A stretch of DNA of 29,787 nucleotides, from the IMG/VR virus record IMGVR_UViG_3300030419_007160, positions 1-29,787 of that record, one strand, 5' to 3'. Under the pieces are notes generated by a model. That model had not been told where the DNA came from. It ran no database searches and saw nothing but the letters and a program-made list of their open reading frames with translations. The DNA comes from a virus. Positions 9,239 through 25,334 of the stretch are shown here, one piece after another (positions within the stretch are counted from its first letter, which is position 1; every line of letters begins with the position of its first letter). Made by a program: the position numbers and the translations under genes.

Positions 9239-11665
9239 TTATCCGCATTTGGCATAGCCACAAGATTTACAAGTTAGGCACCCTTCAATATAAATCAGCC
9301 CGTCTGCTCCGCATTCGCTACAGGTTTTATCACTTGCTCTTGAGCCATCAGTAATATAGTTTTTAAGCACTCTGGCGACACATTTTGCAAACGAAAACAT
9401 GTCACTGTCGCGGTCTTTCTGCATCTGCTCTACAACATACTGGATATTTGCTCCATGTCGCAAAGAAAGTGAAATAAGGCGGGTGAATGCCGAGTTGTTT
9501 GGATTATCAAAAACTTTAACAATATCTTTTACAACAATAGTATCACCATTTTTGCCGACACGCAAGTCATAAACAGAGTTCATCGTCTTTCGTGGGTGTT
9601 TTACAAGAATGCCCTCGGTGTGTTTTGCGGGAATCTCAATTAAATTAGATAACCCTCCCATAACTTCGTAAGGTTTGCCGTCAAGCATGCCCACTAAAAT
9701 AATCCACTTCTCACCCTGAATGGTTGTGTGGTGGATGCTACAGGGCAACTCAGTGGGGCGTTTTACCGCTGGGTGATCTGGGAATATATCCTCGCTCTCA
9801 TCTGTGTTTGTTACAAGTACTCCCGTTCTTGAACCGTCAACATAAACAGTGATGCCTTTTAGTCCAAGCTTCCAACCTAACTGATACAGCCGAGACACAA
9901 CTTCTGGATCGGTACCTTTGGGAAGATTAATAGTAGAGCTAATTGAATGATCAATATGCTTTTGAATCGCGGCTTGGATGTGAACCCTTTTTTCCCAATC
10001 AATTTGGTGAGATTCAGTAAAAAAATCTGGCACCTCTTGTGCCCTAAACATATCTAAGTAAGAAGATACGTTGTGGTGAAAAACCTCATATTCAATCCAA
10101 CGATCTCCTAGATCGTCAACAAAATCTGCCTCAATATTGGTTTCATTGTGAGACAATTTTCTGCGGCGTGTGTATGAGTTTCTAAATACCGGCTCAATAC
10201 CTGAAGAGGTCTGTGACATAATTGACACCGATCCAGTGGGGGCATTTGTTAAAATAGAAATGTTTCGTCTTCCATGTTGTGCCATCAACATTTGAACCTC
10301 GGATGGCAACGACTTGATAAATTCGTTATTTCGCTCTTTTTCCCAATCAAAAACCGGAAACGAACCTCTTTCCTCTGAAAGGCGAACGGATTCCGTATAT
10401 GCCGCAACTTTAAAAGTTTCATAAATTGTATCAATGACAGACAGAGCTTCTTCCGAATCATATGCGAGCGAAAGACAGGCAAGGGCGTCCGCCAATCCGT
10501 GAGTCCCGAGCCCAGTCCGGCGTCCATTGTTACATGCAGTTTTTAAATTTTCCCAAAGTTCTTTTTCGTCATCCGTATCGCACGCTTTAATAATGCTGTC
10601 CAACTTTTCAATTTCAAGCTCTACAAGATCATCGGATAATCGCATCGCCGTGGTGACAACATCAGTAAAATGGTTGAAGTCAAAAGATGCTTTTTCTGTA
10701 AACGGGTTTTTAACGAAGTTTTTGAGATTTACCGAAATAAGACGGCAAGAGTCGTAAGCAGATAAGGGAATTTCACCACAAGGGTTTGTGCAGATGGTTT
10801 TAAAGCCATCGTCGGCATATGCTTCTGCGGGAAGGTACTTCTCAATGTTACCCCACATCAAAAGCCCTGGCTCTGCCGTCTTGGTAGCCGATTCTACGAT
10901 TTGCTGCCAGAGGGTGGCGGCGTCAATTTCTCTGGTGTGTTCTGGGTCTTTCGCGTCAACAGGAAACCGAAGAGTAAATGATCCATTGTTTTCAACTGCC
11001 TCCATAAAATCATCACTTATCTTCACAGACACATTTGCACCTGTGACTTTGGTGAGATCATGCTTCATTGTGACAAATTTTTCAATATCAGGATGACGCA
11101 CATCCATTGATATCATAAGTGCCCCTCGGCGTCCGTTTTGCCCAATCATACGACAAACATATGAATATAAATCAGCAAAAGACCAAGCACCCGTGGTGGT
11201 GCCTGCGGAATTGTTAACGGCAGTGCCTTCGGGGCGGAGTTGGCTAATGTCAAGCCCTACGCCACAACGTCTTTTAAATAGATTGGCAAGAGATTTACTT
11301 GAATCTATAATCGAAGAAATATTATCTTCTGGTGAGGCGACAACAACGCAGTTAGAAAGGGATACGTTGACATGGTTGTTTCCAATACCCATCATTGGAG
11401 AGCCTTGGGGGACAATATATTTAAAATCTTTCAAAAGATTGTATATCTCCTCTTTTGACAGTTGACTAAGCCCCCCAAACTTTTCTTCAATCCTTGCAAA
11501 CTCTGAAGCTATACGATCATGCATGTCGTCGGGTGTTTCTTCTAAAATTGTTCCGTTTTTATTTTTTAAGGCATATTTTGTGAGCCACACATTGGCGGCT
11601 AATTCATCGCCATTGAAATACTTTTTTACTGCTTTTTTTAACTTCTTGCCCAACTTACTTCCCAT
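9239..11665 (-). CDS. nrdJ: adenosylcobalamin-dependent (class II) ribonucleotide reductase
   Basis: 808 aa single-chain RNR. Active-site elements are the redox Cys in LSNC (C106) and SCRLISVNL (C307), the radical loop NPCGE (N294, C296, E298), and the phosphate-binding APTGSVS...SGIEPVF. The C-terminus ends CSECGADGL...GCLTCKSCGYAKCG, the Cys-rich shuttle tail typical of B12-dependent NrdJ. There is no small-subunit (NrdB) gene nearby, in line with class II. The enzyme reduces NTPs/NDPs to deoxynucleotides without oxygen but requires the host's cobalamin. It starts at ATG 11663-11665 inside the last codons of the helicase gene (11-nt overlap) and is probably co-expressed from the promoter at 13050-13078. 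Confidence 0.93.
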   Translation of the reverse strand: MGSKLGKKLKKAVKKYFNGDELAANVWLTKYALKNKNGTILEETPDDMHDRIASEFARIEEKFGGLSQLSKEEIYNLLKDFKYIVPQGSPMMGIGNNHVNVSLSNCVVVASPEDNISSIIDSSKSLANLFKRRCGVGLDISQLRPEGTAVNNSAGTTTGAWSFADLYSYVCRMIGQNGRRGALMISMDVRHPDIEKFVTMKHDLTKVTGANVSVKISDDFMEAVENNGSFTLRFPVDAKDPEHTREIDAATLWQQIVESATKTAEPGLLMWGNIEKYLPAEAYADDGFKTICTNPCGEIPLSAYDSCRLISVNLKNFVKNPFTEKASFDFNHFTDVVTTAMRLSDDLVELEIEKLDSIIKACDTDDEKELWENLKTACNNGRRTGLGTHGLADALACLSLAYDSEEALSVIDTIYETFKVAAYTESVRLSEERGSFPVFDWEKERNNEFIKSLPSEVQMLMAQHGRRNISILTNAPTGSVSIMSQTSSGIEPVFRNSYTRRRKLSHNETNIEADFVDDLGDRWIEYEVFHHNVSSYLDMFRAQEVPDFFTESHQIDWEKRVHIQAAIQKHIDHSISSTINLPKGTDPEVVSRLYQLGWKLGLKGITVYVDGSRTGVLVTNTDESEDIFPDHPAVKRPTELPCSIHHTTIQGEKWIILVGMLDGKPYEVMGGLSNLIEIPAKHTEGILVKHPRKTMNSVYDLRVGKNGDTIVVKDIVKVFDNPNNSAFTRLISLSLRHGANIQYVVEQMQKDRDSDMFSFAKCVARVLKNYITDGSRASDKTCSECGADGLIYIEGCLTCKSCGYAKCG

Positions 11666-14978: not shown

Positions 14979-15299
14979 TTAGCGATATCTACGAGCAGGT
15001 GGAGCAGGTCTCCCTCTTCCCTTCACATATCTAACATGAGTGTGTGGATGTCTGTTAACCATATGGCGGGGAATTGTACGAAGCTCCCAATATCCACGGT
15101 GGTAGACACCTCTTGCATCGCGATGTGCTTTTACCCACACCCAAGCCTTCACCCTAACGGGAGCCTGATTGTGATGTGGAGCGTGGGCACGAGGGGCGGG
15201 AGTGTGATATCGTTGCTGTGGTGGATGTGGCGGCGTGTGAGCGTGCACAGCACATCCAGCCAAACAAGTTAGCATTGAAATAAAAATTGCATTAATCAT
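14979..15299 (-). CDS. small His/Pro/Arg-rich lipoprotein
   Basis: 106 aa, ATG 15297-15299 overlapping the upstream TGA by 4 nt, with AGGAAG upstream. The N-terminus MINAIFISMLTCLAGCAVHA has a short hydrophobic core and a lipobox (LAGC, Cys16), so it is probably exported and lipid-anchored. The mature part is packed with His, Pro and Arg (HTPPHPPQQRYHTPAPRAHA) and includes VKAWVWVKAHRDARGVYHRGYW, which resembles the repeats of WXXGXW/YXWGXW surface proteins. It has almost no acidic residues. Metal binding or an envelope role (superinfection exclusion, lysis-related) is possible but unproven. The same DNA also has a long plus-strand frame, which I take to be a shadow. Confidence 0.75.
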   Translation of the reverse strand: MINAIFISMLTCLAGCAVHAHTPPHPPQQRYHTPAPRAHAPHHNQAPVRVKAWVWVKAHRDARGVYHRGYWELRTIPRHMVNRHPHTHVRYVKGRGRPAPPARRYR

Positions 15300-15517
15300 T
15301 TTTTCTTCCTTTTTTTGGTTTTCGCAGGTTTAACAGGCTCAGGGTGCCAACACTTTACTTGGAACTTGTTATGTCCTTGCCCATATCTTTTAATTTTGAC
15401 GAGCGTGTGTTCGGGAAATTCATATAAAATTTCTTCCTTTTTAGATAAAGCAGCCTCATAAGTGTTAAATATTCCCACTCTCTTCCACGACTTGCTGTTT
15501 TCCTTATTCGGATCCAT
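15296..15517 (-). CDS. small basic protein, function unknown
   Basis: 73 aa from ATG 15515-15517 (MDPNKENSKS). This start is chosen because AGGAAG lies just upstream; the same frame extends to 15619, but the longer form would sit deep in the recombinase gene and has no better ribosome site. The centre, RVGIFNTYEAALSKKEEILYEF then LVKIKRYGQGHNKFQVKCW, looks like a compact alpha/beta fold, and the end KPAKTKKRKKK is a polybasic tail suited to nucleic-acid contact. It overlaps the recombinase stop by 14 nt and the lipoprotein start by 4 nt. Confidence 0.75.
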   Translation of the reverse strand: MDPNKENSKSWKRVGIFNTYEAALSKKEEILYEFPEHTLVKIKRYGQGHNKFQVKCWHPEPVKPAKTKKRKKK

Positions 15518-16637
15518 CTGTCTCTTCCTCATAAAAATCTGAAGCATTTCCTTCGCGTTTGTCAAATTTATAAATAACTTCTTCATCCATAATTTCATAA
15601 ACTCTCGTTCGGAATTCATCTTCTTTCATACGGTCATTCCATTTAGATGCTTGGAATTTTGAACCCAGAGCCTCACCGGAAGAATCCAAGAGCGTATACC
15701 AAGCACCAGTACGAACCAAGCTGGAAGAGCCGCCGATGGCGTCAAACAGGCTTTCATCATCCTGAATGCCAATCTGATCCCCCCACAGAATACGGAAATT
15801 ACACTGCCTCCCCTGAGTTCCAAAGCGGGATTTTTCCAATTTTACCTTAACCTCCGAACCGATGCGGAAGCCTTTGTCATCCGTGACAAAAGATGCCTTG
15901 GCTTTACGCCCTGTCAACCAAATACGGAGAGAATAAGCATAAATCATTGCTTTTCCACCTGGGGTGACATAAGGTGTTGTAAGAGCCTCAGAAGGTGAGC
16001 GAGTAATGTTGGATTTTAACTGGTTTAGTACCAAAAACGTTGATTGGGAGTTGGCGATAGGAACAGTCAATTTGGACATACCTTTCGCGAGAATGCGAGC
16101 CTTTACTGCCATAGAAGATTGAGGGTTAAAATCACCTTCAATATCAGAAATGGCAGGTGTGAGTGCCAGCGAGTCCCAAATAAACAACATACGATTGTCA
16201 TTATTGCTAAGAAGATCCTCAATGGTTTCTAAAACAAACTCAACAGAAGCAGCCTGAACATACAGAAGGCTGCTCAAGTCGCATCCTGCTTTCTCAAGAA
16301 AACCAGGATCAATTGCCGACTCCGAATCAAAATAAATAACATCAATACCCATTTTTTGAGCATTTGCGGCAACCTGTGCTGCCATGTAAGATTTACCAGT
16401 CGCCTCCAGACCTGCAATCTCAACAATTTTGCCAACAGGAATACCAGAAAGCTTCCCTCTGCATATAATAGAGTCCAACCATCGTGAACCAGTTGGAATC
16501 CACTCTTTTACTTCAGTTGGGTTCTCTTCGGTTAAATTGTGGGCTACATTAACCCCAGCACGTTTATTTATAAGTGCCCTCATGTCGGATAAACTTAATT
16601 TACCCGGTTTTGTATTTTTAGCTCTCGCCATTCTCAT
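15504..16637 (-). CDS. RecA/UvsX-type recombinase
   Basis: 377 aa. Walker A GLEATGKS (76-83), the catalytic Glu region FDSESAID (104-111), Walker B LFIWDSLAL (around 151-159) and the L2-like region LVLNQLKSN then TPGGKAMIYAYSLRIWL match the RecA/UvsX family. It forms filaments on single-stranded DNA for recombination and recombination-dependent replication, displacing or cooperating with the SSB encoded just upstream. The tail is acidic (FYEEETDGSE), as in other RecA proteins. ATG 16635-16637 follows GGAG at 5 nt; a second ATG two codons later is less well placed. It lies 64 nt after ssb, with a hairpin in between. Confidence 0.93.
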   Translation of the reverse strand: MRMARAKNTKPGKLSLSDMRALINKRAGVNVAHNLTEENPTEVKEWIPTGSRWLDSIICRGKLSGIPVGKIVEIAGLEATGKSYMAAQVAANAQKMGIDVIYFDSESAIDPGFLEKAGCDLSSLLYVQAASVEFVLETIEDLLSNNDNRMLFIWDSLALTPAISDIEGDFNPQSSMAVKARILAKGMSKLTVPIANSQSTFLVLNQLKSNITRSPSEALTTPYVTPGGKAMIYAYSLRIWLTGRKAKASFVTDDKGFRIGSEVKVKLEKSRFGTQGRQCNFRILWGDQIGIQDDESLFDAIGGSSSLVRTGAWYTLLDSSGEALGSKFQASKWNDRMKEDEFRTRVYEIMDEEVIYKFDKREGNASDFYEEETDGSE

Positions 16638-16701: not shown

Positions 16702-17463
16702 TTAAGCTCCCATAAGTTCGTTGAAAGCGGCATCAACAGAAGAAACCGTCTCGGTAGAAGGAGGAGGGGTTGTATCTGTGGTCTCCTCGCTGGTGCCTTC
16801 TTCACCAAGAAGGTAGGCGTCCAATAGTGCCCCTACCTCTTCTGGTGTTTTACGCTCAAAAAGCGTGTCAAACTCAGGAATGCTTTCAAGCAATTCTGCA
16901 CATCGGTCATCACCGCCGACTGCATCATCACACAGCACAGAGGAACGACGACGTGGAGTAAGTTTCGTTTGTGGGAAACTTGCTCCTTGGGGCTTACCAT
17001 AGTGCAGGACAAGATCCGTTCCTGTCTCTGTGTCGGTAATATCTCCGTATTCGGGGTTCAGAACGAGGTTGAGCAATTGCTCATATACCATCTTTCCGTA
17101 TCCCCAGATACGAACACCCTTATCTTCTTCACCTCGTACTAGTACGGGGGAGAAAAATCTTTGACGAGCCATAAGAGACTTCGCCATCTTAATACTATCT
17201 TCGGTGCCCTCGTTAAAAAGCTTCCGAACAAAGTCGTTCAGTGGATCATCTTCACCGAAGTTCTTCTTCGGACTAAGAAACCCAGGATTATTGCCCACAT
17301 TATAGTGGAACCAGAAATCCTTGAAGGGATCTCCATCGGCAGTGGGAACGATGCGAATACATTGTTCGCCGTCTTGTGGACGCCAGAACGTATCGCGATT
17401 TCCTCCACCTCTTCCTTCAAGTGCCGCTTTGCGGGCTTTCATTTTATCAATATCAATTGCCAT
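16702..17463 (-). CDS. single-stranded DNA-binding protein, T4 gp32-like
   Basis: 253 aa. After a basic N-terminus (MKARKAALEGRGGGNRD) comes TFWRPQDGEQCIRIVP and DPFKDFWFHYNVG, the start of the gp32-type OB core. The tail is acidic and Thr/Pro-rich (EEGTSEETTDTTPPPSTETV), as expected for the partner-recruiting tail of SSBs. Where gp32 relatives usually have zinc-binding Cys (CP...CP.C), this protein reads FLSPKKNFGEDDPLND, so the zinc site appears to be lost. It coats ssDNA at the fork. ATG 17461-17463 with AAGGAG, preceded by its own promoter at 17534-17562 and a leader of about 65 nt. Confidence 0.85.
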   Translation of the reverse strand: MAIDIDKMKARKAALEGRGGGNRDTFWRPQDGEQCIRIVPTADGDPFKDFWFHYNVGNNPGFLSPKKNFGEDDPLNDFVRKLFNEGTEDSIKMAKSLMARQRFFSPVLVRGEEDKGVRIWGYGKMVYEQLLNLVLNPEYGDITDTETGTDLVLHYGKPQGASFPQTKLTPRRRSSVLCDDAVGGDDRCAELLESIPEFDTLFERKTPEEVGALLDAYLLGEEGTSEETTDTTPPPSTETVSSVDAAFNELMGA

Positions 17464-17570: not shown

Positions 17571-17858
17571 TTAAAAATATTCGTGATCAAGCGGAATATT
17601 CAAATAGTACCCGCCACCCATTTCGCATTGGCAGTAGGATTCGTGCTCAAAGCCGGAGAATTCTCCTCCCATAGCAGAACATACCACCTCGCAGTGCCCA
17701 ACTGCTTTTCCGAGCCTAAACCCTGCTTCATAAGTTTTCAAAGCAAAAAGAGCACTTAGTCCAACAAGCAATAGTAGCCCCAAAATACGCTTCCAGTGAG
17801 TTTTTGTATATAAAAACGCTTTACCAATATAGTCCAATATTTTTCTCACTATGTTCAT
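17571..17858 (-). CDS. single-pass membrane protein with Cys-rich tail
   Basis: 95 aa. A basic, amphipathic N-terminus (MNIVRKILDYIGKAF...KTHWKR) precedes one hydrophobic segment, LGLLLLVGLSALFAL (about 27-41), so it should sit with the N-terminus inside. The C-terminal 50 residues carry four Cys (HCEVVC and YCQC) that could form disulfides in the periplasm. It starts 1 nt after the FtsZ/tubulin-like gene stops, which suggests coupled synthesis and possibly a joint function such as anchoring. It could instead be an unrelated host-takeover protein. No family recognised. Confidence 0.75.
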   Translation of the reverse strand: MNIVRKILDYIGKAFLYTKTHWKRILGLLLLVGLSALFALKTYEAGFRLGKAVGHCEVVCSAMGGEFSGFEHESYCQCEMGGGYYLNIPLDHEYF

Positions 17859-17859
17859 T

Positions 17860-18696
17860 TTAATTTCCTGTTTGGTTTGTGTTTACGACAACATATCCAT
17901 AATTAGCATCATAGGATGTTGCGTGCACCTGAAAGGCTGCTGTAGTTTTGGTATCAATGTTCTTGTTTATATTTTCTGTCAGTTTGCGGAGCAACTTTCC
18001 ATCTGTTTCTAATGTTTTTGAATTGATAGCATAATAATAACTCTTTTCTTGAACACTGTCAAGGGAAAAAAACAATTTTTCTTCACCCGTATCAATGTTA
18101 ACCATACCAAGAGTGCTAACTCTGGTGGTCTCATGCGGACTAAAGGCTGTGTCGTGTACAGGCTCTTGGTGATTATAGACATTGACCATGTGCACAACTG
18201 ACGCTATAAGGTCATTTAGTTTGTCATAATACCCCACTATTGGTACCTCTCCTATTATTTCTTCTATCATCTTATTGTCAACTAAATATACTCTTTGAAT
18301 TACCCCAGAACGAGCATATTCTTGCAAAACACTCCTTACAAGGCGTTCTTGTGATATATTAATAGACCCCAAAAATTCAAGATCCGGCTTAATGTATAGG
18401 ACGCTAAGATTTTTATCAGATAATTGTTGCAGCACCCTCAAACAAGCACCAGAAACACAACCAGAGCCAGAGACAACAAAAAGTATATCATCGGTGACAT
18501 CTTTAAAAAACGTTTTCATTGAACGAACGCTTTTTTCGTATTTTTCTGGATGGTCTTGTCTTTTAAGAACAAGACAGTTTTTTTCTTTTTTATTTAACCC
18601 TTCGGAATCAAGTTTATATATTTTATATTGTGGGTATTGAGAGAATTTATCTGCAATAGCACAACCTGCTTTACCCAACCCAACTATTGTGTCCAT
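17860..18696 (-). CDS. FtsZ/tubulin-like GTPase-fold protein
   Basis: 278 aa, ATG 18694-18696 with GGAGG. The order of elements follows FtsZ: TIVGLGKAGCAIADKF (T1-like glycine loop), KIYKLDSEGLN (equivalent to FIAxNTDaqaL), a glycine loop VVSGSGCVSGA (74-84, for GGGTGTG), SVLYIKPDLEFLG (for VVTKPFxFEG), RVYLVDN (for VIPNDrL) and helix H7-like YYDKLNDLIASVVHMVN. The T7 catalytic NxDxxD is not evident; the nearest is EPVHD, so GTP hydrolysis may be altered. It is shorter than FtsZ (about 310-residue core) with no C-terminal conserved peptide. Phage tubulins (PhuZ, TubZ) organise phage DNA; the role here is unknown. Assigned from motif order, not a search. Confidence 0.6.
   Translation of the reverse strand: MDTIVGLGKAGCAIADKFSQYPQYKIYKLDSEGLNKKEKNCLVLKRQDHPEKYEKSVRSMKTFFKDVTDDILFVVSGSGCVSGACLRVLQQLSDKNLSVLYIKPDLEFLGSINISQERLVRSVLQEYARSGVIQRVYLVDNKMIEEIIGEVPIVGYYDKLNDLIASVVHMVNVYNHQEPVHDTAFSPHETTRVSTLGMVNIDTGEEKLFFSLDSVQEKSYYYAINSKTLETDGKLLRKLTENINKNIDTKTTAAFQVHATSYDANYGYVVVNTNQTGN
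18034..18062 (-). promoter_or_regulatory. candidate intragenic sigma-70 promoter
   Basis: Inside the FtsZ/tubulin-like gene, minus-strand TTGACA (18057-18062), 17-bp spacer, TATTAT (18034-18039). It has the same geometry as the intergenic promoters and would produce extra transcript for the membrane protein and ssb. Being within a coding region it may be chance. Confidence 0.35.
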
Positions 18697-19886
18697 TCAA
18701 TCCTCCGCATATCGCCATAAGACTTACCAGCACTTAAATTAACCTGAAACTTGCCGAATGGTGTATCAGAAAATAACGCCAATAGTTCCCCCACCAACTC
18801 TCGCTCGCTATCATCAAAGTCAATAACTATACTATCATGAAGTGTGAACGAAATAAAGGAGTTTTTACCCTTAAGTTTATCAGCGATTTTAAAAGCTCTG
18901 GATAGCACGATATCGCTTGTCGTGCTCTGTATTAAATAGTTTAGTGCATGGTGTTTATCCGCTTGAATAACGCGATTCATTGGAGTGATAACGACCTGTC
19001 CATTCCAATATTTCCTTAATATTCCATCGCGGTCATAATGCCTGCCGGGTAGGTCATCTTTTGACTGCGGGTTATATAACCAAGAGAAGATTCTCTTCTT
19101 TGCTTGATCCCGTGTGCCAACATTCCGAAATACATTCTTTAAATTCCAAAGATGCAGATCTTCTATGGGTTGTTGTTTGCCAGAAAGTCCAAGAAGGACG
19201 CGAAGCTCTGCTGCGTTATAATCAAGTTCCACGAAGTAATCATTTGTTGGTTTAATGATAGAGCGGTATTCACTATCAAGAGTTAAAATAGGGAAATAGC
19301 CCTTTATAGTGGTCATCCTGCCGGTTTTTGTGCCATATATATTGTATTTTATATAAGGTTTGATATACCTTGATTTCTTAAGAAAATTACGTACTTTTAG
19401 CTGGTGGCTGTCTCTTGCAATTTCCGAATAATCAATATTCAACCTTCTTTGTCCAATATTATAAGTGAACTCAACCATATCTCTCATAAAATCATAATTC
19501 GCTGGTTTAGGATAGTTTTTAATAATATGCTCTGTGATTTTATTCTTTACTTCGCAATATTCTAGGAGAAATCTTTGGGGCACGAGATCATAAAAGCAGT
19601 GTATATCCAAATTCATTTTCGCTGTTGAAAATGACTTATAAAACGCCCTCAAACGAGCCGTAATTGCTTGCCAACGGTGACTTAAAAAATCAGGACATAC
19701 TTCATCTAGTGTTTTGCCTTGAGCCAGTAGGGAGGCTATTGTGGTATCTTTTTGGGATATTGCAGGATTGTAATTCCAAGTAGCGGTTACGGAGTCAAAA
19801 TCAAACTCTTTGCAGTCGTATATAAGCCTGCCATTGTGATATATGCCTACGCAGTGTTTTTTATCGTCTAATGTCTGTATTAGCAA
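18684..19886 (-). CDS. compact family-A DNA polymerase (Pol I polymerase domain)
   Basis: 400 aa, much shorter than Pol I (about 930) or T7 polymerase (about 700). Motifs present: TKTGRMTT (186-193), motif A ELDYNAAELR (D222, E227), motif B RDQAKKRIFSWLY (R259, K263/K264, F267; the usual FGxxYG glycines are Ser and Asn), NYLIQSTTSDIV and motif C LHDSI (H350, D351; the usual Glu is Ser). No 5' nuclease and no DEDD 3'-5' exonuclease motifs are seen, so it should not proofread. The start is TTG 19884-19886 after GGGTGA, 10 nt from the preceding stop. With a full DnaE-type polymerase in the same genome, it more likely serves primer replacement, repair or lesion bypass. Confidence 0.85.
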   Translation of the reverse strand: MLIQTLDDKKHCVGIYHNGRLIYDCKEFDFDSVTATWNYNPAISQKDTTIASLLAQGKTLDEVCPDFLSHRWQAITARLRAFYKSFSTAKMNLDIHCFYDLVPQRFLLEYCEVKNKITEHIIKNYPKPANYDFMRDMVEFTYNIGQRRLNIDYSEIARDSHQLKVRNFLKKSRYIKPYIKYNIYGTKTGRMTTIKGYFPILTLDSEYRSIIKPTNDYFVELDYNAAELRVLLGLSGKQQPIEDLHLWNLKNVFRNVGTRDQAKKRIFSWLYNPQSKDDLPGRHYDRDGILRKYWNGQVVITPMNRVIQADKHHALNYLIQSTTSDIVLSRAFKIADKLKGKNSFISFTLHDSIVIDFDDSERELVGELLALFSDTPFGKFQVNLSAGKSYGDMRRIEWTQ

Positions 19887-21263: not shown

Positions 21264-21695
21264 CTACGCTGTCTTTTTCATTTTCCACTCAACATCTCTT
21301 CTAAATGCTGAATTTAGTGCTTCGCCATCTCCGAGACCAGACAATACATACCCATTGATTACAAAGTTGTGTTCGCTGTCATAGATAGTATGTCCGTCCA
21401 CTTCTAAGTTATAGAACTTACTAACAAATTGCTGCTTCACACAAGCTTCAGGATGGTCTTCCATAGATATCCATTCACCTTCGTATTGTATTGGGTGAAT
21501 AGCATTACCCTGAATACCCGGTAGCGTAGCTAACGTTACTGTAGAGTTAATTTCATAAACCAAGGGCTTCGTGACTCTGCCTGGAGTGGGAGCATTGTCG
21601 CTGTTTAGGGAGAGTACAACATCACCCATGACAACATCCTCTATGGGCTTAAAACTACCGTCATACATAGTGATCATTGTGCCGGGAACGAAGCA
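21264..21695 (-). other. Hint (hedgehog/intein) domain segment
   Basis: Codes for residues 1214-1356 of the large virion protein, TGC codon at 21693-21695 being the likely nucleophile Cys after RTGNFA. A His at the TxxH position (AIHPI) and the final beta-strands are present. Since nothing follows, the expected outcome is cleavage at Cys or attachment of a nucleophile, as in hedgehog proteins and bacterial intein-like domains, rather than splicing. Confidence 0.8.
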
Positions 21696-24600
21696 GGCAA
21701 AGTTTCCAGTTCTTCCTGATTTGATATTTCGTCTTTTCGTCTCCTGCTCTTGAGTTCGCGTAGCCACTGCCTGTGCGTTTTCGGTTTGAATTTGCTGTAT
21801 CGCTGTCTGTACGAGAGGAGCAACAGCATTTTGAGCCTGAATTTGGCGAGCCTGTCTAGTAGTCGAGCACTGTGGGAGTGCGGCATCGTAAGCAAACGAA
21901 TTCCATCTCGTGCTTAAGGATGTTCTCCATTTACCGCCTTTTCCCAAAGATCCAAAATCATGCTCAATTCTAGAAACACCAAAATATCCACCAACACCTA
22001 TTGAGCGAGCAGCACTTTTAATAATTCCTGAATTTTGTACACGATCATTTGAATCTTTATCGGGTTCTAATATCGGTCCCTGCAAAGACTGTGGATCAAG
22101 GTATAGCATTGTACCTACTTTAAAAACACAGTTACCACGTAATAATATTTCCGCATCATACTTTGGACGTAATATTCCCATTCTATTTCCGCCCTTATCA
22201 GCCATCAGGTTCGCCTCTTCAATTCCTGGTAAATCAGATCTTCTAAATTGAACGCTCATGATTGATTTTTTTACTGCCGAACTCAGCTTAAAGTGATATA
22301 TGCCTTTTGCACGGTCTTCTGATTTATTGCCCGTCCTACGTATTTCATCTTCTGCTTTCTGATGTATGAGAAAAACTTGATATGTGTTTAATTTACCTTT
22401 TGCTTGTGCTTGTCTAATAGCTCTTCTGACTTTCCCTATGGTCACATAGTCAACAAAACTATATGAAATAAAATCTGCTGTTATACTTTGATATTGCCCT
22501 GCGACACTGGTGGACTCCATTATGCCAGCTTCGTATAGTTCGTCATCGGTCAAAATGTCAATGTCATAATTTACGCCTTGTCCATTGGTTACATAAGAAA
22601 CGCTCTCAGCGTTATATGATATTACTGTATCTGTATCATCTGGATATGTCATGTTGCTTGTATTACCTTCAGGTACCCCGGTTTCGGAATAAGAAACTCC
22701 ATTAAGGGAATCCTGAACCTGATCCCAGGCTGCGGGGTTTTGGGTGTGCAAAGTGTCCAGCATTTGTTGAGCGAGCGATGGGCTCTGCTCTTGGACTGCT
22801 TGGTATCCTTGCACAAACGATTCTATAGCATCTTCGACAACGGCTTGTTGCGGGTTTGGAGCCGGAGCCGATGAGGCAGGCGTTGCCGCTGGAGGAGTTG
22901 GCGAAGCAGGTGTGGGTGCCGCTCTATATCTCTCCATCCTTCTTGTGGATTTTTGTGAATTTAGCTCTGTTCCATCTCCCTGTACTGACAGATAACTCAT
23001 TAGTGCTCGGGGGGTAGTGGCTGACTCATTTCCCCCGTCTCTACCGGGATAAGTTGCGAGTGCTGCTGGCATAACTACATGTAGTAGCCCATCAATTAGG
23101 TTTTTAAGATAATATCTTGTAATGTTCGGTCTTGATACAACTTCGTTAAACCAAAATTCTTTAAAAAGCATTAGATCTATTGGTATGTCTGCAATATTAA
23201 CGAATGTCTTTTTGTTGACCGTTTCTTTTGAGGGAAGCTCAATATCTCCAAAAACATATTTTCCATATTTATTAATCATTTTTTGGGTGCCCTCACCCAA
23301 CCTGCCTTGTTCCGCAACCTCATCAAAAAATACGGGATAATTTGCATTGGCTTCACGGGCGGCTGCTTCGGCTTCCGCAGCTTGGGCAGCGGCTTCTGCT
23401 TCGGCTTCGTCTGCTTCATCTGGGTCGGAGGGGGAGGTGGGCTCTGGGTCTGGTTCGGGCGGCGATGATGCTGTAAATCTATTATTGTAAGCCAAAATTT
23501 CTAAAGCGGCTTCGACAATATCACCAAGAAAAACAAATTGAAAAAACTTTCTATCACCGTGATCAATAGAGCTTTCACCCTCTGCAAGATTTGTCATAGT
23601 TTCTTCCGTGTCTTCGTCCAACTCCTCTTGATTCTCATTAAGTTCGTTTTGTTCGTTGGTCATGGCTTCAACCGTAGTACTTGCCTTGGCATATCTAGCA
23701 TAGTTGCGAATCACAACGTCGTCTTCGTCGGAGTCGTGCGTTCCAGCGGACAGGTTCTCTACATTTCTCACCTCGACTTCAGTGTTAGTCTCAGGTGCAT
23801 CTGGCTCGCTTGGTAACTCCACACCGGGATTAGTTGTCGAACCGGAGTCAGCCAATGCTGTCTGAATGATAGAAACGGCATCTTCGGGGAAAGAGCACAC
23901 ATAAATTCTTGAACTCGCTCCCTGGGAGATGTTTCCGTGGCTGCGATTGGCCAATCTCAATTGATTAAACATTTTTCTATTGCGAATATTAACATCATTA
24001 GTGTATGCCTCTCTAAGGTTATCTAGCTTAGATCGCAATTGGTTTTCTACTCTCCCACGGGCTTGGTTTTCAAGAGAGATCTCTGCTCTTTGCTCTGGTG
24101 TGGCGTTGTCGGGCACCTCTTTTTGCTTACTTGCTTTTAGCTGTTCCTTAATCTCATCTTGTTCTTCGCGATTAGCCTCCAGCGTCGCGCCAAGTATAGG
24201 ATCATCTAATAAATTTGATTCCGGCATTTGTTGTATTGCAGCACCGTGAGCAATAAAATTTACAGTCATGTCAACGGTCATATCTGGATTAATAATTATA
24301 TCATGGTGCTTTAGGTTTAAATAAAATATCTCCTCATGAGTATTAATCGCCTCTATTATCTGATTAACTCTTTCCTCTACTTTGTTACGGTCAATACGTC
24401 CCGATGTGGTTTGAATACCATTTTCATCAACAACTGGCTCAACTTGTCCGCTATTTACTTGCGATTTAAACCCTGCGGCGATGGGTGTCCCTGCTGCTTC
24501 CCACTGACGTATAAGATCGGGGGTCACTTGTGAGCGACCGACAGCCCCTCCGAGAAGCGAGTTTCTTATTGTGTTTTTGATTTCGCTTCCAACCTTGTTG

Positions 24601-25334
24601 TACCCAATCTTCAATTTTATTCTTGTTCCAGGCTCATCGTAAAGCCTCTCACATACCGAGTTGTTCTGAAGCGTGGTTGGGTTTATTTTAATCAAATCAA
24701 TCCAGGCGATGCCGTTTTTTCTTACAAGGCGGGGGCAACCTCGCACACTTCGCTCAGGAGGCTTATATCTATAAAATAAATTATTCAAATCCATAGTGGA
24801 GATTTTTAAATCCACCAATATGTTGGATTCAAACTCTGCCGGGTTACCACCAAGTTTTGTAATTTTTAAACCGGTGATGCCGACTTGAGTTCTAGCACTT
24901 TGGCGTTCAGAATCGGCAACCAAATTGCCGACACGATTAATCGGATATTTAGGTCTGAACAATACATCAAACACCTCGTCTGTGTCGGTACCCTTGGGGT
25001 ATGATTTATATAATTCAACTCTTGGCGTTAACTGATCTAAAACTTCTTCGGGGATATCTAAAAAATCTAAGGTGCTTGATGGCGTAAAAGCATTGATAAG
25101 TGTGGAAATATCCTCACCTCTTGTTAAAGCCGATTTATCAATCTCTCCATTATGATTTCGTGTGTCAATTATAGTTCTGGTAATAGCAACAGGCACTGGA
25201 CCTAATGGTGCACTGTTATCAGTGTCAGTCGGAAAGCCTCTAATTCTACCAGTCATTGAAAGAACTTTGTCAAGGTTGTCAATTAAAAAACGCTGGGCTG
25301 CTTCTCTTTCGCTAATCTCAGGAGTGTCCGACAT
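21264..25334 (-). CDS. large virion (tail/baseplate) protein with C-terminal Hint domain
   Basis: 1356 aa, ATG 25332-25334 with GGAGG. The N-terminal ~600 residues are mixed alpha/beta with no named domain. Two low-complexity linkers follow: an Asp/Glu/Pro/Ala-rich one (about 621-663, PEPDPEPTSPSDPDEADEAE) and a Pro/Ala/Ser one (about 804-832). A folded region to about 1190 includes GVGGYFGVSRIEHDFG. The last 143 residues, starting at C1214, are a Hint domain: CFVPGTMITMYDGSFKPIED, GDVVLSLN, block-B-like AIHPIQYEGEW, and FYNLEVDGHTIY...NFVINGYVLSG. No terminal His-Asn and no C-extein follow. Location between tape measure/LysM genes and the replication genes supports a tail or baseplate role. 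Confidence 0.8.
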   Translation of the reverse strand: MSDTPEISEREAAQRFLIDNLDKVLSMTGRIRGFPTDTDNSAPLGPVPVAITRTIIDTRNHNGEIDKSALTRGEDISTLINAFTPSSTLDFLDIPEEVLDQLTPRVELYKSYPKGTDTDEVFDVLFRPKYPINRVGNLVADSERQSARTQVGITGLKITKLGGNPAEFESNILVDLKISTMDLNNLFYRYKPPERSVRGCPRLVRKNGIAWIDLIKINPTTLQNNSVCERLYDEPGTRIKLKIGYNKVGSEIKNTIRNSLLGGAVGRSQVTPDLIRQWEAAGTPIAAGFKSQVNSGQVEPVVDENGIQTTSGRIDRNKVEERVNQIIEAINTHEEIFYLNLKHHDIIINPDMTVDMTVNFIAHGAAIQQMPESNLLDDPILGATLEANREEQDEIKEQLKASKQKEVPDNATPEQRAEISLENQARGRVENQLRSKLDNLREAYTNDVNIRNRKMFNQLRLANRSHGNISQGASSRIYVCSFPEDAVSIIQTALADSGSTTNPGVELPSEPDAPETNTEVEVRNVENLSAGTHDSDEDDVVIRNYARYAKASTTVEAMTNEQNELNENQEELDEDTEETMTNLAEGESSIDHGDRKFFQFVFLGDIVEAALEILAYNNRFTASSPPEPDPEPTSPSDPDEADEAEAEAAAQAAEAEAAAREANANYPVFFDEVAEQGRLGEGTQKMINKYGKYVFGDIELPSKETVNKKTFVNIADIPIDLMLFKEFWFNEVVSRPNITRYYLKNLIDGLLHVVMPAALATYPGRDGGNESATTPRALMSYLSVQGDGTELNSQKSTRRMERYRAAPTPASPTPPAATPASSAPAPNPQQAVVEDAIESFVQGYQAVQEQSPSLAQQMLDTLHTQNPAAWDQVQDSLNGVSYSETGVPEGNTSNMTYPDDTDTVISYNAESVSYVTNGQGVNYDIDILTDDELYEAGIMESTSVAGQYQSITADFISYSFVDYVTIGKVRRAIRQAQAKGKLNTYQVFLIHQKAEDEIRRTGNKSEDRAKGIYHFKLSSAVKKSIMSVQFRRSDLPGIEEANLMADKGGNRMGILRPKYDAEILLRGNCVFKVGTMLYLDPQSLQGPILEPDKDSNDRVQNSGIIKSAARSIGVGGYFGVSRIEHDFGSLGKGGKWRTSLSTRWNSFAYDAALPQCSTTRQARQIQAQNAVAPLVQTAIQQIQTENAQAVATRTQEQETKRRNIKSGRTGNFACFVPGTMITMYDGSFKPIEDVVMGDVVLSLNSDNAPTPGRVTKPLVYEINSTVTLATLPGIQGNAIHPIQYEGEWISMEDHPEACVKQQFVSKFYNLEVDGHTIYDSEHNFVINGYVLSGLGDGEALNSAFRRDVEWKMKKTA

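Follow-up and report, generated by a model that had tools for sequence, protein, structure and literature searches.

What is a tubulin-like protein doing between the polA and ssb genes of a virus? The question is raised by the 29,787-nucleotide stretch of viral DNA analysed here (the window; positions 1 to 29,787 of IMG/VR record IMGVR_UViG_3300030419_007160), which a sequence-only reading had singled out for a 278-aa FtsZ/tubulin-like protein, here called Z, and a 95-aa membrane protein encoded beside it. Both open reading frames are present, 1 nt apart, and their coordinates, lengths and motif order had been given correctly. The gene map and the loci of relatives also bear out the placement of Z between polA and ssb, within an operon-like minus-strand order of tail/baseplate genes, PolA, Z, the 95-aa protein, SSB, RecA, 5′-3′ exonuclease and DnaB. 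The central features are as follows.

18684..19886, minus strand: PolA, 400-aa family A DNA polymerase, upstream neighbour of Z (Pfam DNA_pol_A, E 6e-11)
18684..18696, minus strand: 13-nt overlap between the end of polA and the start of Z
17860..18696, minus strand: Z, 278-aa protein assigned to the tubulin/FtsZ superfamily, ATG start
17571..17858, minus strand: 95-aa single-pass membrane protein, ATG start, 1 nt from Z
16702..17463, minus strand: SSB, gp32 family, usual downstream neighbour of Z (Pfam gp32, E 1e-11, and synteny)
15504..16637, minus strand: RecA/UvsX-type recombinase, next in the replication module (the order PolA-Z-(x)-SSB-RecA is conserved)

Elsewhere, the window encodes a DnaE-type PolIII alpha (1143 aa, TIGR00594; 3016-6447), so its phage has two DNA polymerases of different families, this enzyme and the short 400-aa PolA; the 5′-3′ exonuclease gene is separate from that of the short PolA. 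An adenosylcobalamin-dependent (class II) ribonucleotide reductase, NrdJ (TIGR02504, E 2e-148), is encoded at 9239-11665 on the minus strand, whereas the cultured phage immuto has class I NrdA/NrdF. A 1356-aa baseplate-region protein (21264-25334, minus strand) carries a C-terminal Hint/intein-like domain (residues 1213-1337), whose Pfam Vint match (E 4e-5) is slightly under the cut-off.

Fold and relatives of Z

The AlphaFold2 model of Z, built on an alignment with 39 relatives (pLDDT 92.3, pTM 0.90), has a complete tubulin fold composed of a nucleotide domain, the core helix H7 and a C-terminal domain. The sequence-only reading had named a Rossmann fold without a tubulin C-terminal domain as the outcome that would speak against it; in the model this domain is present. 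In a Foldseek comparison with the PDB, a check which that reading had proposed, the best 50 matches were all FtsZ or TubZ (E ~1e-11 to 1e-13), and VIA realignment over residues 1-278 placed CetZ at the top (Z value 25.1), followed by TubZ (23.4) and FtsZ (23.3). The Z profile was aligned by hhalign with archaeal FtsZ collinearly over residues 1-272 (E 4.2e-7, probability 93%) and more weakly with bacterial FtsZ (E 0.03-0.06). The fold match and the archaeal alignment together uphold the identity first proposed for the 278-aa protein.

When 84,980 species genomes were scanned with a profile, six cellular relatives were confirmed, all of them archaeal FtsZ in which the GGGTGTG/GGGTGSG and NLDFADL-type motifs are intact. 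Against the 110-member Z profile these scored 12-21 bits, whereas 2000 shuffled copies did not exceed 3.9 and six bacterial FtsZ did not exceed 1.3; part of the archaeal score is, however, inflated by the preselection of the six proteins with a T1 or H5 peptide pattern. The T6-H7 segment, which lies outside this pattern, also matches by eye between Z and archaeal FtsZ. Single-sequence searches of Pfam, PHROGs, NCBIfam, PADLOC and PDB sequences with Z gave nothing useful, a scan of the 84,980 species genomes with one single Z protein found no relative, and tblastn with three family members had no match in the 50,697 phage genomes of INPHARED. Pfam Tubulin (PF00091) misses Z in 12 long records that carry it, and a PDB profile search ranked FtsZ first at E-values too weak to be used alone (0.4, or 1.6 with a broader alignment).

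Relatives of Z are present on at least 589 viral contigs in IMG/VR. The non-redundant set of fetched relatives (n = 110, <85% identity) extends down to 27% identity to the window protein. Family members are 262-312 aa long, with a mildly acidic pI (median 6.0), and neither a DNA-binding signature nor an enzymatic motif was recognised in Z.

Could Z be an ordinary Rossmann/NAD protein whose motifs resemble those of tubulins by chance? Single family members do match Pfam weakly, most commonly TrkA_N (7 of 39 members, best E 0.007), but the Foldseek E-values of ~1e-12, with only FtsZ and TubZ among the best 50 matches, the VIA Z value of 25 across the whole chain including the C-terminal domain, and the hhalign E-value of 4e-7 make this explanation extremely improbable. 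The full-length fold match and the recurrence of the protein on so many contigs and in 110 non-redundant members argue against chance, and Z is almost certainly a tubulin-superfamily protein. It founds a new, previously undescribed family of the tubulin/FtsZ superfamily.

Closest to Z by sequence are archaeal FtsZ from Methanoperedens, Bathyarchaeota and Pacearchaeota (loci L327-L332), which have in common with it an IGLGxAGCN T1 loop, a DNxKL..aGdlP T6 segment and the N in H7. They possess GGGTG[TS]G and NLDFxDL-type T7 loops, whereas Z has neither, is shorter and is encoded by a phage. The best structural matches, CetZ (3zid and 4b45; VIA Z values 25.1 and 23.8), are archaeal proteins with a role in cell shape; they show 13-16% identity to Z, which is ~55 residues shorter. 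TubZ, of type III plasmid partition, has the same fold (VIA Z value 23.4), but Z has no C-terminal H11 or tail, and no TubR-like gene was recognised in the window or among the neighbours. FtsZl1 and FtsZl2, divergent FtsZ-like families in a non-division context (Makarova and Koonin 2010, PMC2875224), are described by a GGGTG(S/T)G loop that Z does not have and, unlike Z, are encoded by cells and extended by large C-terminal regions. PhuZ (phiKZ gp39) and other phage tubulins resemble Z as phage-encoded tubulin folds with relaxed T4/T7 motifs, but Noxifer PhuZ is a weaker structural match (TMq 0.52). The best viral model match (TMq 0.80) is A0A6J5RW92, a 452-aa 'FtsZ' of an uncultured Caudovirales phage with 15% identity to Z. 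Given that annotation, Z may not be the first FtsZ-like protein of a phage that is not a jumbo phage, but a family linked to PolA and devoid of T7 does appear to be new.

Nucleotide loops and the segment in place of T7 and H8

The motif segments of Z fall at the FtsZ positions (T1 GLGKAG, T4-like SGSGCVSG, T5 IKPDLEFLG, T6 VYLVDN and H7 KLNDLIASVV), and the conserved residues of T1, T6 and H7 align with guanine-binding residues of FtsZ. The corresponding features, with conservation among the 110 non-redundant proteins, are listed below.

18655..18684, minus strand: T1 nucleotide loop, residues 5-14, GLGKAGC (G6 in 107/110, G8 in 109/110, G11 in 102/110)
18439..18480, minus strand: T4-loop equivalent, residues 73-86, ~2 residues shorter than in FtsZ (alignment gap)
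18274..18276, minus strand: T6 guanine-pocket residue N141, aligned equivalent of FtsZ N165 (N in 104/110)
18172..18231, minus strand: core helix H7, residues 156-175 (helix in the model)
18121..18171, minus strand: H7-S7 link, 17 residues (176-192), in place of the T7 loop and H8 (no helix in the model)
17863..18120, minus strand: C-terminal tubulin-like domain, residues 193-278, with S7, S8, H10, S9 and S10 in the model

Two further pocket residues lie in H7: N161 (equivalent of FtsZ D187), present in 107 of the 110 proteins, and Y157 (equivalent of FtsZ F183), with Y or F in 97. The T4 signature GGGTG[ST]G was found in none of the 110 Z proteins, compared with six of six FtsZ controls, and the form [GAS]GGTG[AST]G was likewise absent from all 110. 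The catalytic T7 motif NxDxx[DE] showed the same distribution (0/110 versus 6/6), in agreement with the earlier remark that Z has no obvious T7 motif. Protofilament contacts involve the T7/H8 segment as their lower face. The H7-S7 link of Z contains a Pro in 101 of 110 proteins, has no position that is acidic in more than 74, and is the second least conserved of sixteen stretches measured (mean entropy 2.63 bits versus 1.91 overall). A simple deletion of H8 was considered and rejected: the 17-residue link is about as long as T7 plus H8 of FtsZ, so H8 has been replaced, by a loop in the model, rather than deleted. H9 between S7 and S8, H11 and the C-terminal tail are all missing from the model, and the chain stops ~5 residues after S10 without an FtsZ-type linker. 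The C-terminal tail of FtsZ binds FtsA/ZipA/SepF. Having neither NxDxx[DE] with H8 nor a C-terminal linker/tail, Z falls outside the cell-division orthologues of FtsZ.

Through its retained pocket Z would be expected to bind guanine nucleotide, but with the catalytic T7 loop and H8 replaced it probably has little or no hydrolytic activity. This loss of GTP hydrolysis is an inference that the absent motifs do not prove: neither strict motif is found in phiKZ PhuZ, although that phage tubulin is active. The conserved H169/N172 or a semi-conserved acid at position 178 (66/110) could assume the role of T7.

An altered phosphate loop beside a conserved base pocket, together with segments particular to the family (the invariant Q125/R129 and the conserved PExYE and HMxN), would also suit a nucleotide sensor or another enzyme outside any cytoskeletal role, for example one linking the dGTP/GTP level to replication. 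Neither an enzymatic motif nor a family-library match speaks for such a function, and we consider it quite unlikely.

Gene neighbours of Z and the phages that carry it

The first two scans yielded 142 Z loci. PolA lies directly upstream of Z in 99 of them, overlapping it in 89 of these 99, and the gene directly downstream is that of SSB in 62 of the 142 and that of the membrane protein in 41. In the divergent L062 group the gene order is the same, and every PolA directly upstream shows a constant -4 overlap. To counter the bias of fetching by Z, 80 loci were also fetched by a PolA profile, a few of them being contigs already in the Z set. All 80 carry Z, which shows fixation within the lineage and not beyond it, as the profile was built from Z-bearing loci; a gp32-type SSB usually comes next, and polA and Z overlap in 54. 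Z and PolA have diverged similarly (median identity 44.5% and 47.5%, r 0.78), a correlation expected of neighbours, and Z is single copy in 12 of 12 long records. The gene order is evidence of co-inheritance, not of physical interaction.

Between Z and SSB, the membrane protein is often replaced by a family of ~80-94 aa proteins with the pattern 'GTFxKKxGxxRTMxFV...ELVWD' (L029-L031, L048, L052-L054, L063, L085, L086, L091, L100, L105-L107, L110, L130 and L132). Insertions between PolA and Z, either large ORFs of ~780-850 aa or two to three ORFs, occur in L105, L106, L086, L110 and L138, and also in L048, L053 and L054.

By binding host FtsZ as a decoy or cap, Z might prevent cell division during infection, in line with the inhibitor of host division entertained by the sequence-only reading. 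Capping of filaments would be feasible for a tubulin-like unit that has a nucleotide face and lacks the lower one, and phages make FtsZ-binding proteins, such as T7 Gp0.4 (PMC13423816). However, nothing was found that points to such an inhibitor, and the constant partners of Z are PolA and SSB: it is located inside a replication operon, is linked to PolA in every PolA-anchored locus and is about as conserved as PolA, whereas host-takeover genes are usually accessory and variable. We regard the decoy as improbable.

A T4-type major capsid protein gp23 is encoded in eight of nine long Z-bearing records (those examined reach 191 kb), and its best isolate matches are immuto, Mel-JY01 and RM378 (41-48% identity), with cyanophages at ~27-34%. 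This lineage test was done on relatives of the window, which is itself a fragment without gp23. These nearest isolates, Flavobacterium phage immuto, Microcystis phage Mel-JY01 and Rhodothermus phage RM378, are Far-T4 phages. Judged by their sequences, the Z-bearing phages are a large uncultivated Far-T4 lineage in which Z is a core gene. Far-T4 phages have been described previously (PMC4360716), with putative Bacteroidetes hosts (PMC7198788), and excerpts of the literature on them contain no mention of FtsZ or tubulin. The gp23 of these records supports the view that Z lies outside the context of the known jumbo-phage tubulins. PhuZ is presented as a non-essential protein of nucleus-forming phages (PMC11724907); in contrast, Z occurs in every PolA-anchored locus of its lineage, and the phages carrying it are of the T4 type and not nucleus-forming jumbo phages.

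The cultured Far-T4 phages immuto and Mel-JY01 keep the PolA-...-SSB-RecA order with other genes in the Z slot. A Z profile search of their genomes, run without a positive control, found no Z, and a very diverged copy elsewhere is possible. A diverged Z hidden in the slot itself was rejected, the ORFs there being unrelated (two small ones in immuto, three in Mel-JY01). The largest ORF of the Mel-JY01 slot (L249:5406-6692), annotated as hypothetical, encodes a SAM-lyase-family protein (PF23780, E 4e-10). As these two phages have no detectable Z, the protein is not needed for such replication in general and is most simply a lineage-specific gain between polA and ssb that was then fixed.

The membrane protein and the proposed role of Z

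The 95-aa neighbour is a genuine conserved single-pass membrane protein, as had been proposed, and its positive-inside pattern suggests the N-in topology. Members of its family (~84-101 aa) have an N-terminal helix, one TM helix and a C-terminal part, with invariant W22/R24 just before the TM helix (W-K-R) and four invariant Cys in the C-terminal part. The AF2 model (pLDDT 86, pTM 0.53) contains helices 2-20 and 22-62 and three short strands, and had no significant match in the PDB (best E 0.19); a single-sequence scan found just one close relative. The protein is present in all 35 loci with a Z of 55% or higher identity to that of the window. It is missing from all 162 more distant loci, where Z is most often followed immediately by SSB. 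A search that recovered it in three control records detected no copy at another position in eight long records whose Z locus lacks it. Being confined to one subclade, it is not a general partner or filament anchor of Z, which removes the support for the filament/anchor pair suggested initially. Downstream of RecA lies the gene (14979-15299, minus strand) of a His-rich 106-aa protein that starts with a lipobox-like sequence; it occurs in 25 of 43 loci with the membrane protein and in none of 99 without it. Given this co-occurrence, the membrane protein could just as well serve the envelope in that subclade, and the two could form an envelope pair. The membrane protein is a subclade accessory, which may be a tether for Z or unrelated to it.

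These results also bear on whether Z is a PhuZ/TubZ-like filament that positions replicating phage DNA, with the 95-aa protein as its anchor in one subclade. Z has the full tubulin fold including the C-terminal domain and a conserved nucleotide side (T1, T6 and H7), PhuZ likewise does without the strict motifs, and phage tubulins have been described as centring DNA (PMC4244570). However, Z has a weakly conserved loop where T7/H8 would contribute to the protofilament contact, its model shows neither H9 nor an H11/C-terminal tail, and most of the Z family has no membrane protein. We consider such a filament possible but unlikely.

With slightly less than even confidence, we favour a role for Z as a guanine-nucleotide-binding, poorly hydrolysing tubulin-fold scaffold/adaptor of the PolA/SSB machinery. 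It would be co-translated with PolA and would not treadmill as a cytoskeletal filament but organise, as a static or regulated scaffold or adaptor, the PolA/SSB/RecA machinery or its DNA. More tentatively, Z may be a tubulin-superfamily protein turned dedicated, non-cytomotive replication component, the obligate partner of the phage family A polymerase in a widespread aquatic lineage. Phage DNA replication thus seems to have co-opted a cytoskeletal fold.

The phage tubulins described to date, as far as we know, either form filaments in jumbo phages (PhuZ) or serve in partition (TubZ). Z has the fold but lacks the standard catalytic loops, and the widespread T4-superfamily lineage in which it is a core gene encodes it in the DNA replication operon. 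Z would widen the uses of the tubulin fold and offer a natural test of whether this fold functions without T7-driven GTP hydrolysis. For the mostly uncultivated Far-T4 phages, it would represent a marker and a first functional lead.
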